Positions 17,319-23,305 of a stretch of DNA of 23,305 nucleotides are shown in pieces. Source of the DNA: a virus; IMG/VR virus record IMGVR_UViG_3300003267_000223, positions 1-23,305 of that record. One strand, written 5' to 3'. Every line of letters starts with the position of its first letter. The stretch's first letter is position 1. A model generated the notes under the pieces. That model did not search any database. It was given only the letters and a program-made list of their open reading frames with translations, and had not been told where the DNA came from. Position numbers and translations under genes: made by a program.

Positions 17319-18671
17319 TTAAAATCTTTCATTTCTAAAGAATCCAGGTAGCTCATCGCCACCATACATTGCTTGTCTATAATTCTTATCGAGTTCTTGA
17401 GCGCTCAATCCATCTTGTGTGCGCGGCAAAGATATGCATAAGTATCTCATAGCATCAGCATAATGGCTATGTACATCATGCAGTGGATGCGGCTTATACA
17501 CCTTCTTCTTGGCATCATATTCTTGTCGATAGTTTTCTAAAGATTTCAGCAATGGCGCACAATTCTTTTCATCAATCCATAACTTACTAAAAGAAGATCG
17601 AACGGATTCAATTCCATCGGCTATAGACAAATCGGGAGCAATAGTAAAATTGATTCCCAGCTGTCGTGCTTTTTCTAAACGAGTCATTCCCGAACCAAAC
17701 TCACGGACCTTTATATCATGAGGAGCAAAGTGACGACCGTACGTATACGGTTTTGACTGAAGTACTGAAACGTAATGCTCAAGGCCTTCTTTATTCTTAT
17801 CGTAGCAATCAATTATACGAACTGTTTGCCCAATGGATTGATAGAAGATAATGCACGTTGAGTCCCGAACACCAAGATCCCATGCAGTATGTACTTTAAA
17901 TCCATGCTCATAAGGAACGATGCCAATTTGTCCCTTAACACGCATCTTATCGAGATATTTGATGTAGTAAGCACCTTCAACGCCCATCTCAAAAGATGTG
18001 TAATACTCTTGTTGAATCAAATCTTCTGACATGATTCCTTCTTTGCGTTCTCTGTCTATCTCACCAAAAGGAATATGAAGCGTATCATCAACGGTAAGCT
18101 TTTGGCAGAACCATTCTTTAGAGTGTTGCGCTATCTGATACAACTCCCACAAGTGATTCTTTCCTCGCGGAGTAGACAAGAATATTGCTATCCCATCATT
18201 GGCAGCAAGTATTGGGCGTATGAACTGGTATGCCCTGGGATCTTGCAAAGCATATTCAGAAAAGACGCAAAGCTGGGGGTTGGTACCCATCAAAGAGTCA
18301 TAATTATCAGACCCAACAACCTGAAAGACAGATCCGTTTATGAATCGTATTTTCATTTCCTGAACGTTGATGCTATCAATGAGCTGCTTAGGAATGTAAT
18401 CAAGTACCCGTTCACCAGTATTGGTGATCGAATCAAACAGAATCTTACGGCCCTGCGAATAAGTGGGAAATATATAATAAACTACTTGTGCTTTACGCAA
18501 TGCAGCACGAATACAAAGATTAAATACCGTCATATCCTTGCCTGCTCGCCGTGGCCAAATAAGTAACGCTCGTTTATATTTCTTGTTTTCTATCGCATCA
18601 AAAAGACCAAGTTGATACTGTCTTGGCTTAAATCTATTCAAATGTATTTGTGCTTCTACAGATACAGTCAT
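17319..18671 (-). CDS. Terminase large subunit
   Basis: This 450-residue DNA-packaging motor has both domains. In the ATPase, the P-loop is WPRRAGKD (39-46), Walker B-like CVFSEY with E139 follows at 135-140, and the STPRGKNH coupling segment is at 166-173. In the RNase H-like nuclease, WDLGVRDST (D265, D270) gives the first acid and HSHYADAMRY near residues 418-427 the last. A Ser in place of the usual Asp before the Walker B Glu is a known variation of this phage group. The start has AGAGGG 8 nt upstream and overlaps 18634-19128 by 38 nt. Confidence 0.92.
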   Translation of the reverse strand: MTVSVEAQIHLNRFKPRQYQLGLFDAIENKKYKRALLIWPRRAGKDMTVFNLCIRAALRKAQVVYYIFPTYSQGRKILFDSITNTGERVLDYIPKQLIDSINVQEMKIRFINGSVFQVVGSDNYDSLMGTNPQLCVFSEYALQDPRAYQFIRPILAANDGIAIFLSTPRGKNHLWELYQIAQHSKEWFCQKLTVDDTLHIPFGEIDRERKEGIMSEDLIQQEYYTSFEMGVEGAYYIKYLDKMRVKGQIGIVPYEHGFKVHTAWDLGVRDSTCIIFYQSIGQTVRIIDCYDKNKEGLEHYVSVLQSKPYTYGRHFAPHDIKVREFGSGMTRLEKARQLGINFTIAPDLSIADGIESVRSSFSKLWIDEKNCAPLLKSLENYRQEYDAKKKVYKPHPLHDVHSHYADAMRYLCISLPRTQDGLSAQELDKNYRQAMYGGDELPGFFRNERF

Positions 18672-21054: not shown

Positions 21055-21341
21055 CTGATTCCCTTAATAATAACATCGTCTACTTCTATCGGAGCTCCTG
21101 ATGAGGGCTCGCTTGGTCTATTAACTTTCTTCTTTGGTAGTTCAGTGATTTTTTTTGGTTTTACTGCACGCGGAGATTGAAATGCAGCGCGCCATGCATC
21201 AAAAAAATCATCACGTATTTCAATTTTATGAAACTCTGGATTGGGCGGAGTGCTCGGCCTTTTATCAAAACAATGCAGAGCCATAAAGAAACACAAAAAC
21301 ATGACTCCAACATAGACAAAAAAATCCATACACTTAGCCAT
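21051..21341 (-). CDS. Small single-pass membrane protein
   Basis: The 96-residue protein (MAKCMDFFVYVGVMFLCFFMALHCF...) has AAAGGA 6 nt before its ATG and overlaps the initiator gene by 8 nt. One membrane segment (about 7-24) is followed by a Pro/Lys-rich soluble tail (PKKITELPKKKVNRPSEPSSG) and ends VDDVIIKGIR. The topology suggests a cytoplasmic or periplasmic tail of about 70 residues. A spanin or holin identity is not supported by the sequence. It is coupled to 20884-21054. Confidence 0.6.
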   Translation of the reverse strand: MAKCMDFFVYVGVMFLCFFMALHCFDKRPSTPPNPEFHKIEIRDDFFDAWRAAFQSPRAVKPKKITELPKKKVNRPSEPSSGAPIEVDDVIIKGIR

Positions 21342-22671
21342 GCAAATTCCTTTCTAGTTCTTGAATTTCTTCTTTGAGCGATTGAATTCGATTAACGAGT
21401 CCACGCTTTGCTTCTTCATAAAAGAACCCCTGTTCCAGGTGGTCCATGTTGCAAACGGCTCTTTGCAGTTCTTGTTTCAACATCTGCAATCGAGGCTCTC
21501 CCTGAAGCTTTGCACGCTGTTCACGCTCTAAGCTTTTTAAGGAAATTCCCTGGCGCTTGGATACCTGTTGTAGTGATTCTGCAAGGGAATTAGGCTTGAC
21601 GTGTGATGGTTCTGGTCGTTTGTACATATCAGATGGACGTTCATCTGGTTCGTCATCTACTTTGTGTACCGGTATCTGTAATATCTCACACACGTTGTAA
21701 TACCAGTTCCACTCAGGAGTAAAGTTCTGCTGACGAGCATGCTCTTTACACGCCTTAAGCAGAAAGGCCATGGGATTTTTTATGCCACTTACTTTCTTGG
21801 TCATAGCCCACGCAGCCTTCAAGACAGACTCATCAAACGCAACTAGCTTCAAGTAATCTTCTTCTGGCACCTTAAAGGCATCGATGATTTCTCTCATAAC
21901 CGGAGACACCAAGCCAAAACGATTATCTCGGAGAATATTGCGAGTAATCTCTTCCTGGGGCAACTTCTTGATCCACTCACGCACTTCTTTTGCTACCATT
22001 TGTAACTTCTCCCGAGTACCGTTTCGGTATTCTCGTTGCCTTTTTGTCAAATACCCGTATCCATCACCATCCACAGCCCTCGCGTGCGCGTGCGTCATGC
22101 GCGTAGAGTACGGGTTACGGGTATATAAATAATTATTATATTTAATTAAACTTCTAATAGGGGTGACAGTTTCAGTGTGAAAGATTGTACTTATGGAAAT
22201 ATCTATTTTCTTTTCCGGTAGTGAATTTATATATGCTTCATACTTTGTGTCTGAGACGAGTTCTTCACAGAGCTTATAATCATTGATAGAAAATATATTG
22301 TTTTGAGATTTGGTGATATATCCATTCTGACACAGCCAATTGGTCCATCTTATGACACTTCTGGTACAACATCCTACCCGTGTTGCAAGGTATTTATTAC
22401 TCAGCTTCATAAAGGGGGCATGCCTAAACTCAAGCATGATCCTAACGATATCGTGAGCATATCCTCTCTTGTCTTTTAAAGGAGCTAATCTCTCCTGACT
22501 CTTCTTAGAAAAGGTGTGCGGTTTACAACAAAGAGGGTTTTTGTCATAACATTTCATGTCCTGAAAAACTTTTTCATCACGAATCGCTCGATTGGGACTT
22601 TTGTCTGCACCTGGTACATTACAGACATGACTTTTCATGAAACATCGATTGGGAGATGTTTTAGACAACAT
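21334..22671 (-). CDS. Replication-initiator-like protein with N-terminal winged helix
   Basis: The 445-residue protein starts after a perfect GGGAGG (4 nt). The N-terminus has several Cys/His (C10, C17, C41, C48, C49), possibly a metal site. Residues about 72-130 form a helix-turn-helix (YLATRVGCCTRSVIRWTNWLC) as in HTH_36-type phage and plasmid replication proteins. A low-complexity stretch (about residues 180-215, HAHARAVDGDGYGY) follows, then a helical domain (KKLPQEEITRNILRD...AWAMTKKVSGIKNPMAFLLKACKEHA) and a C-terminal coiled coil. The DNA coding the linker carries origin-like repeats. It is the second gene of the early operon. Initiator function is inferred from domain order and this feature. 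Confidence 0.65.
   Translation of the reverse strand: MLSKTSPNRCFMKSHVCNVPGADKSPNRAIRDEKVFQDMKCYDKNPLCCKPHTFSKKSQERLAPLKDKRGYAHDIVRIMLEFRHAPFMKLSNKYLATRVGCCTRSVIRWTNWLCQNGYITKSQNNIFSINDYKLCEELVSDTKYEAYINSLPEKKIDISISTIFHTETVTPIRSLIKYNNYLYTRNPYSTRMTHAHARAVDGDGYGYLTKRQREYRNGTREKLQMVAKEVREWIKKLPQEEITRNILRDNRFGLVSPVMREIIDAFKVPEEDYLKLVAFDESVLKAAWAMTKKVSGIKNPMAFLLKACKEHARQQNFTPEWNWYYNVCEILQIPVHKVDDEPDERPSDMYKRPEPSHVKPNSLAESLQQVSKRQGISLKSLEREQRAKLQGEPRLQMLKQELQRAVCNMDHLEQGFFYEEAKRGLVNRIQSLKEEIQELERNLHG
22051..22150. other. Origin-like repeats and AT-rich element inside the initiator gene
   Basis: ATACCCGTAT (22051-22060) is inverted relative to two direct TACGGGT copies (22109-22115, 22116-22122). 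Immediately beyond lies a run of 29 bases with no G or C (22122-22150). A G+C-rich block with GCGTGC repeats (22082-22102) lies between. Iterons beside an AT-rich unwinding element, within the initiator gene's linker, is the arrangement of lambdoid O-gene origins. Confidence 0.5.
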
Positions 22672-23008
22672 TTAACCTCCCGATCAAAAATTTCTCATTT
22701 TTATTCACGAAAATAGCTGCTTTACAGAATAAATTATCAGACAGATTTCCATTGCCACTAATTCTTCTTTTTCTTGCTTTTTCTTTCCGTTGATGAAATA
22801 ATACTAATTCGCGTGGTTTTATAATCATGTGCAATAAACAGCGGCAACATTGGACCTTGCAATAAATCTTATTTTGAAATACACTAGATTTATAAGTAGT
22901 TTTGCTTATAATTTGACAATTGGTCATGGTATACAAGCCCTTGTTGGTGATATATCCCGTCAAGGTTATCGTAAGATCTTGTTGTAAACCAGATTTATTG
23001 TTAAACAC
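22661..23008 (-). CDS. Small basic Cys-rich protein leading the early operon
   Basis: I choose the GTG at 23008 as start because AAAGGAG lies 6 nt upstream; the ATG at 23032 has no ribosome site and the ATG at 22927 has only AAGGG at 10 nt. The 115-residue product has a Cys cluster (IYCKVQCCRCLLH), a strongly basic segment (HQRKEKARKRRISG) and Asn-rich ends. Its stop overlaps the initiator start by 11 nt, with the initiator's ribosome site inside it, so the two are translationally coupled. It may be a DNA-binding regulator; no family is recognised. Confidence 0.5.
   Translation of the reverse strand: MFNNKSGLQQDLTITLTGYITNKGLYTMTNCQIISKTTYKSSVFQNKIYCKVQCCRCLLHMIIKPRELVLFHQRKEKARKRRISGNGNLSDNLFCKAAIFVNKNEKFLIGRLNVV
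22928..22936 (+). promoter_or_regulatory. Possible antisense extended -10 promoter
   Basis: TGGTATACA on the plus strand forms an extended -10, with a TTGACA nearby (22912-22917) but at too short a spacing (11 nt). Transcription would run to the plus-strand terminator at 23212. Weak evidence. Confidence 0.25.
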
Positions 23009-23066
23009 AAACGGCTCCTTTCTTGGAAGCATTGATTGCTGAAATGAAGAAGCAGTTTTTCAAAAC

Positions 23067-23117
23067 CATAAATTCTTTCGGGGATTTGTGTAACATAAAC
23101 TCTTTCGGGAGTTTGTG
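23067..23117. repeat. Two tandem 24-nt hairpin repeats with compensatory differences
   Basis: Copies at 23067-23090 and 23094-23117 agree at 21 of 24 positions. Each folds into a 6-bp hairpin: AAATTC/GGATTT and AAACTC/GAGTTT around TTTCGG. All three differences keep pairing (T-A to C-G, and T-G to T-A). They stand about 60-110 nt upstream of the start at 23008 and are likely regulatory. Confidence 0.65.
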
Positions 23118-23211
23118 ACTATAAAGGGGTTGTCAAAATCTCTTTGCTAAATACCGTCCAAGTGGTCGTAGGGAAAACAAACAATTGGGCCGGTGTGAAA
23201 ATTTCAAGTTC

Positions 23212-23258
23212 GACGGATAACTATATACTAATTATGGCTATCCGTCTTCTTTTTTTTT
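23212..23258 (+). terminator. Plus-strand intrinsic terminator
   Basis: GACGGATA (23212-23219) pairs with TATCCGTC (23239-23246) around a 19-nt loop; TTCTTTTTTTTT follows. No plus-strand gene is obvious upstream, so it may end an antisense transcript, or protect the minus-strand operon from opposing transcription. Confidence 0.7.
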
Positions 23259-23305
23259 CTAGAAGCTATAAACTTTTCCATCCTGGTGAAGGTTCTCACA
23301 TGGGC
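23228..23305 (-). CDS. Possible C-terminal end of a gene entering from the right
   Basis: A minus-strand frame open to the right edge reads AHVRTFTRMEKFIASRKKKK and stops at TAG (23228-23230). Only 25 residues are visible, with a Lys-rich end. It overlaps the plus-strand terminator hairpin. Too short to identify. Confidence 0.35.
   Translation of the reverse strand, partial: AHVRTFTRMEKFIASRKKKKTDSHN

Follow-up and report, generated by a model that had tools for sequence, protein, structure and literature searches.

The replication operon and its surroundings

What do two nearly identical hairpins do just outside the replication operon of a phage? The window—the whole stretch of 23,305 nucleotides analysed here—is a fragment (23.3 kb) of a podovirus-like phage whose longer relatives span 33-43 kb. 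Its minus-strand genes are, in order, a 116-aa ORF, the replication protein gene (rep), RusA, a putative small terminase, the large terminase and the portal. The frame of the 116-aa ORF contains no stops, as compared to 10-11 in the other frames, and profile searches (PHROG/Pfam) found no family for it. The replication protein matches the PHROG DnaD-like helicase loader (8.7e-5) and HTH_36 (2.2e-5, just under the Pfam cut-off), and no close relative of it was found in viral contigs or annotated phages. The twin hairpins flank this operon on its 5′ side and belong to the other strand; ~55 nt separate them from the first start codon that is plausible for the operon. The first-pass annotation, made from the sequence alone, had placed them upstream of the early operon, which is correct for this minus-strand operon. 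The features are as follows.

21334..22671, minus strand: replication protein, 445 aa, winged HTH/DnaD-like
22661..23011, minus strand: 116-aa ORF, first of the replication operon, with a GTG start after AAGGAG, overlapping the rep start
22885-22912, plus strand: second candidate promoter from the promoter scan, TAGATT-16-TATAAT
22944..22972, plus strand: weak candidate promoter, TTGGTG-17-TATCGT, start at ~22979, only at the 61st percentile of its own genome
23060..23258, plus strand: putative leftward (antisense) RNA, minimal extent, from the fold statistics of 23060-23262
23067..23090, plus strand: hairpin 1, CAUAAAUUCU-UUCG-GGGAUUUGUG, 10 bp with three G-U pairs; the copy is CATAAATTCTTTCGGGGATTTGTG
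23094..23117, plus strand: hairpin 2, CAUAAACUCU-UUCG-GGAGUUUGUG, 10 bp with two G-U pairs; the copy is CATAAACTCTTTCGGGAGTTTGTG
23121..23145, plus strand: predicted third hairpin, UAAAGGGGUU-GUCAA-AAUCUCUUUG
23212..23258, plus strand: intrinsic terminator directed away from rep, GACGGATA...TATCCGTC followed by TTCTTTTTTTTT, from the sequence and a terminator scan
23228..23305, minus strand: C-terminal end of the next upstream ORF, ending in AHVRTFTRMEKFIASRKKKKTDSHN before the stop codon (from its translation), cut by the contig end and overlapping the terminator; presumably the small HTH gene known from relatives

At the other end of the fragment, three small plus-strand ORFs (115, 101 and 81 aa; 157-1091) with hydrophobic segments converge with the late genes and have no PHROG match. 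The first of them (115 aa, 157-504) carries the Cys-rich tail that had been linked to the hairpins, and we found no support for that link.

Fold and strand of the twin hairpins

The twin hairpins are a real, well-formed pair. Two 24-nt copies, 27 nt apart from start to start and separated by a 3-nt linker, differ at three positions, as first described; the stem, originally given as 6 bp, is present and extends to 10 bp in each copy. As plus-strand RNA, both copies form a perfect 10-bp stem closed by a UUCG loop. All three differences had been considered compensatory. Two of them are indeed a true double change at pair 7-18, where the U-A of copy 1 is replaced by C-G in copy 2, while the third is a one-sided wobble change at pair 8-17, from U-G to U-A. 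The latter is tolerated only in plus-strand RNA, because the minus strand acquires a C-A mismatch. Since every non-Watson-Crick position in the two stems is G-U on the plus strand, the full fold is preserved only as plus-strand RNA.

The folding energies point to the same strand. Together, the two hairpins fold with -18.7 kcal/mol on the plus strand (z -4.0; none of 200 shuffles was equally good), while the minus strand yields an ordinary -7.8 kcal/mol (z -0.5), with copy 1 not folding at all. All 16 flank positions outside the core are paired in the window copies, as compared to 7.6 +/- 2.0 expected. Only three perfect hairpins with a 10-bp stem and a 4-nt loop occur on the plus strand of the whole window, and two of them are the twins; the third (18643-18666) lies at the 5′ end of the terminase gene. 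The proposal of selection on a folded form thus holds in that the paired state is kept, best as plus-strand RNA, and the signals from the family described below imply that this strand is transcribed. The strand asymmetry favours the plus strand and, resting on two or three independent positions, constitutes modest evidence. A compensatory change alone is not exclusive to RNA, because co-variation would likewise be expected in a dyad to which a protein dimer binds.

Downstream on the same strand, a strong terminator follows 95 nt past hairpin 2, and the stretch from the hairpins to the terminator (23060-23262, 203 nt) has a fold z of -5.0 on the plus strand versus -2.2 on the minus strand. The predicted third hairpin continues the 27-nt phase of the twins with an unrelated sequence, and this phasing could be chance. 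The location of the twins, the in-phase third hairpin and the terminator on one strand is consistent with a single RNA. Counter to it, the promoter scan found no good plus-strand promoter near the start of the replication operon in the window.

Transcription signals in the rep leaders of the family

Is leftward transcription a property of the family? The sample comprised the window and 39 relatives, 40 phages in all that have this leader. Their rep leaders contain 24 intrinsic terminators directed away from rep versus one directed toward it, with 20 of the 40 phages carrying one, counts in which near-duplicate relatives somewhat overstate independence. Shuffled leaders gave 1.5 away and 0.5 toward, and 238 control windows gave 11 and 11 (Poisson 6e-21). 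Within the 700 nt before rep, a sense-direction terminator occurs once in the 40 phages.

The promoter signals have the same polarity. A sigma70-like promoter on the anti-rep strand overlaps the rep start—called automatically, and approximate in some cases—in most relatives; in 20 of 40 phages, it reaches the 95th percentile or more of the genome to which it belongs (KS 7e-18). On the sense strand, two phages reach at least that percentile, which is no excess. Against dinucleotide shuffles, the anti-rep promoter beat 95% in 23 of 38 cases, while the same test at control starts scored 0/36 for TerL and 1/33 for the portal. Near-consensus examples are TTGACA-16-TATAAT in L022, TTGACA-16-TAGAAT in L185 and TTGACA-16-TATTAT in L193. 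In L027, the promoter TTGATT-17-TATAGT lies at +9, and the predicted RNA would start just before the CUUUCGGG repeats. Taken together, the two kinds of signal predict RNAs of ~75-280 nt, running from the rep start through the leader, and leader folding across 18 phages is stronger on the anti-rep strand (p 0.01).

A short RNA, transcribed leftward and antisense to the rep leader, is thus a probable product of the phage family, comparable to lambda OOP and the plasmid countertranscripts. These family-wide transcription signals are a stronger and more general result than the twin hairpins themselves. The paired plus-strand fold, the terminator and the terminators and promoters directed away from rep across the family all rest on sequence statistics.

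Core motif and repeat arrays in relatives

We also searched for the element in other phages. Tandem copies of the core CTTTCGGG occur, among 98 relative loci (1.28 Mb), only in L027 and L048 (L198 is the same contig as L027). In a scan with the paired CTTTCGGG pattern, these two are, among the matches listed, the TerL relatives that have the element where the window has it, and most of the listed matches are unrelated repeats. In both, the repeat directly precedes rep at its 5′ side, and its strand in relation to rep matches that of the window. The stems have been retained there only in part: L027 forms 21 of 32 flank pairs (13.8 +/- 2.4 expected; above chance and imperfect), and the complete copy of L048 forms 4 of 8. 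Folding of the L027 array and leader RNA revealed no unusual stability or structure. In L027 and L048, the linear core is thus better kept than the stem, contrary to the earlier claim that the folded form rather than a linear site is under selection; a linear motif kept better than the stem had been named along with that claim as evidence against it. The core is common to three phages only, whose stems do not align, which form no single clade in a quick portal tree, and whose Rep proteins are dissimilar, so that core motif and Rep similarity do not match. The rep-sense motif CCCGAAAG is found 10 times in 16.5 kb of rep leaders versus 5 times in 472 kb elsewhere, a 57-fold enrichment (p 5e-12) in which copies within one array are not independent.

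Hairpins comparable to those of the window, near-identical and in tandem, were found in one of 96 relatives' loci (L164), at the contig end 5′ of rep; in the first relatives, a generic search for hairpins in tandem picked up chiefly dispersed pairs that resemble chance matches. Neither the exact twin pattern nor that of a single hairpin had a homologue in the viral or genome collections, and seven matches to a relaxed hairpin pattern look like chance. DNA and peptide searches of annotated phages found no such element, and Rfam yielded no family at the gathering score in the window or 11 relatives, only chance matches. A host REP-like repeat was likewise not found among the hosts of the genome collection: the 24-nt palindrome pattern has no match in it, and the tandem core has only scattered ones.

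L163, L164, L165, L179, L203, L008, L012, L027 and L048 carry direct repeats in tandem, unrelated in sequence, at the rep start or immediately 5′ of it, and some of these arrays, as in L164, consist of hairpin-forming units. In L164 (1-403), perfect tandem 30-nt units, each a 10-bp hairpin on the anti-rep strand, reach the contig end, and 33- and 43-nt repeats extend up to the rep start along with two CTCGAAAG copies. The contig ends of L048 (1-50) and L164 (1-100) fall inside repeat arrays, which suggests that the assembly broke there and that the genomes themselves contain longer arrays. In L203 (3607-3900), a 97-aa leader ORF with tandem 54-nt repeats precedes rep and has a KPERLLRN motif like the PER repeats of L027. 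L027 also encodes GroEL-like (3-638, cut by the locus end) and GroES-like (1412-1663) proteins on the minus strand, as judged by eye from the translations.

Alternative explanations

The main rival to an antisense RNA is a set of DNA sites: iterons or operators by rep, bound by the initiator or a small HTH regulator, with the dyad reflecting dimer binding. The tandem arrays at or 5′ of the rep start in many relatives fit this reading, as do the enrichment of CCCGAAAG in rep leaders and the dyad iterons inside rep in three relatives. The latter (L025 7684-7729, L186 7365-7415 and L205 7690-7744) resemble the lambda O origin, and those of L025 and L186 adjoin an AT-rich palindrome. However, the asymmetric centre TTTCGG is conserved in the window while the symmetric arms change, the reverse of what a dimer operator would show; moreover, 27 bp does not correspond to an integer number of turns of the helix, and a shared initiator site sits poorly with the dissimilar Rep proteins of the core-sharing phages. 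We consider DNA sites unlikely on balance. The core might instead act in the sense mRNA, where CCCGAAAG(G) repeats near the initiation site of rep or a leader peptide would control translation, as GNRA mini-hairpins or protein-binding ribosome-binding sites. CGAAAGG indeed stands 16-20 nt before rep in L017, L027, L048, L169, L185 and L222, and the repeats of L027 and L048 can be read as peptides (PERSLRN.., TPERIYR..) overlapping the rep start codon. Nevertheless, the sense strand of the window folds poorly, its repeats are not beside a good start codon, and its PER frame lacks a start codon and is closed by a stop two codons ahead of the repeats; we consider sense-leader control improbable. 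The repeats as a protein-coding PER peptide were also rejected: the frame is open in L027 and L048, while that of the window lacks a start codon.

A minisatellite is a comparably poor candidate. Coding repeats spread by replication slippage would be tolerated because the unit is a multiple of three, with the palindrome incidental; the spacings (27, 27, 24, 18 and 24) are all multiples of 3, Pro-Glu-Arg repeats occur in all three phages and nowhere else in the 98 loci, and the perfect direct repeats of L048 and L164 reach the contig ends. Slippage leaves the full pairing of both window copies and the covarying pair unexplained. The least probable reading, and a very remote one, is a put-like antiterminator, in which a hairpin pair in the emerging early transcript alters RNA polymerase for read-through of the terminator 95 nt downstream. 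The arrangement of two adjacent hairpins and then a terminator recalls HK022 put, whose two stem-loops suppress terminators (PMC9378689), but the simple 10-bp hairpins lack its bulges, triplex and non-canonical pairs. Furthermore, no promoter lies just upstream, any downstream plus-strand genes are beyond the contig end, and the relatives in which the terminator persists do not conserve the hairpins.

Proposed antisense RNA

We give about even weight to the reading in which the twin hairpins are stem-loops of a short plus-strand RNA that limits the initiator. We infer that the window is transcribed, where transcription begins, that the RNA acts as antisense and what its loops do, as follows. 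The RNA would be transcribed away from rep through its leader and end at the terminator 23212-23258. Transcribed from the opposite strand, it would be perfectly complementary to the leader of the rep-operon mRNA, provided that this mRNA starts upstream. The UUCG loops, which fit the YUNR U-turn consensus, would make the initial contact with the mRNA, at its CCCGAAAG sites, and the RNA would limit initiator expression, as plasmid countertranscripts limit theirs and lambda OOP limits cII. The conservation of CCGAAAG(G) may itself serve the mRNA, because the motif often coincides with the rep Shine-Dalgarno (-16 to -20). Against this antisense RNA stand the partly kept stems of L027 and L048 and the fact that the hairpins are not general to the family, in addition to the lack of a good promoter in the window.

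More tentatively, and with less than even confidence, the whole uncultured podovirus-like family may control its initiator by a plasmid-style antisense RNA from a promoter inside the rep start, here equipped with tandem UUCG hairpins whose loops match the repeated CCCGAAAG sites of the leader. The best-known cases of antisense control of a replication gene are those of plasmids and, in the form of OOP RNA, of lambda; if the proposal is true, such control would be a general feature of a widespread, largely uncultured phage group. The tandem hairpins offer a concrete handle for separating the contributions of loop, linear site and stem.

Comparison with known systems

How does the window compare with characterised systems? 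It shares two adjacent stem-loops ahead of a terminator with HK022 put, whose RNA of ~70 nt has two stems with defined bulges and directly follows an early promoter; the stems of the window are perfect and free of bulges, no promoter was found directly before them, and fine structure, position and orientation differ. The phage family resembles lambda O and the plasmid iterons in having tandem repeats with dyads beside or inside the initiator gene, while the window itself has two copies, a conserved asymmetric centre and a location outside rep.

The resemblance to plasmid countertranscribed RNAs concerns the layout. RNAII of pMV158 is the complement of the stretch between copG and repB, and loops of the YUNR type are a recurring element of antisense systems that act by loop-loop contact (PMC4485353). 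The common features are a small regulator gene followed by rep, an antisense RNA over the leader (putative in the window), and a stem-loop with an intrinsic terminator (PMC4485353); the UUCG loop of the window fits the YUNR motif of the loop-loop systems. In contrast, the window belongs to a phage, its hairpin is duplicated and its regulation is putative, while RNAII of pMV158 has no U-turn motif.

Lambda OOP RNA (pO-oop-tO) is a short leftward RNA: its promoter sits at the replication gene start, and its intrinsic terminator is close to where the upstream regulatory gene has its 3′ end (PMC5869508; PMC3985674). The phage family has this geometry, with leftward signals running from the replication gene start to an intrinsic terminator. 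The leader terminator directed away from the replication gene is present in the window, as in the 24:1 bias of the 40 phages, and the opposite-strand promoter at the rep 5′ end reaches at least the 95th percentile in 20 of the 40, the window being weak at the 61st. The window terminator overlaps the end of the contig-cut upstream ORF; in most relatives, the terminator stops short of the upstream gene, and the main complement would therefore be the rep leader rather than a cII-like gene. The tandem UUCG hairpins of the window member and the unrelated phage family also set the system apart from lambda. Judged by these signals, the twin hairpins probably belong to an antisense RNA for the replication gene, of the OOP type.
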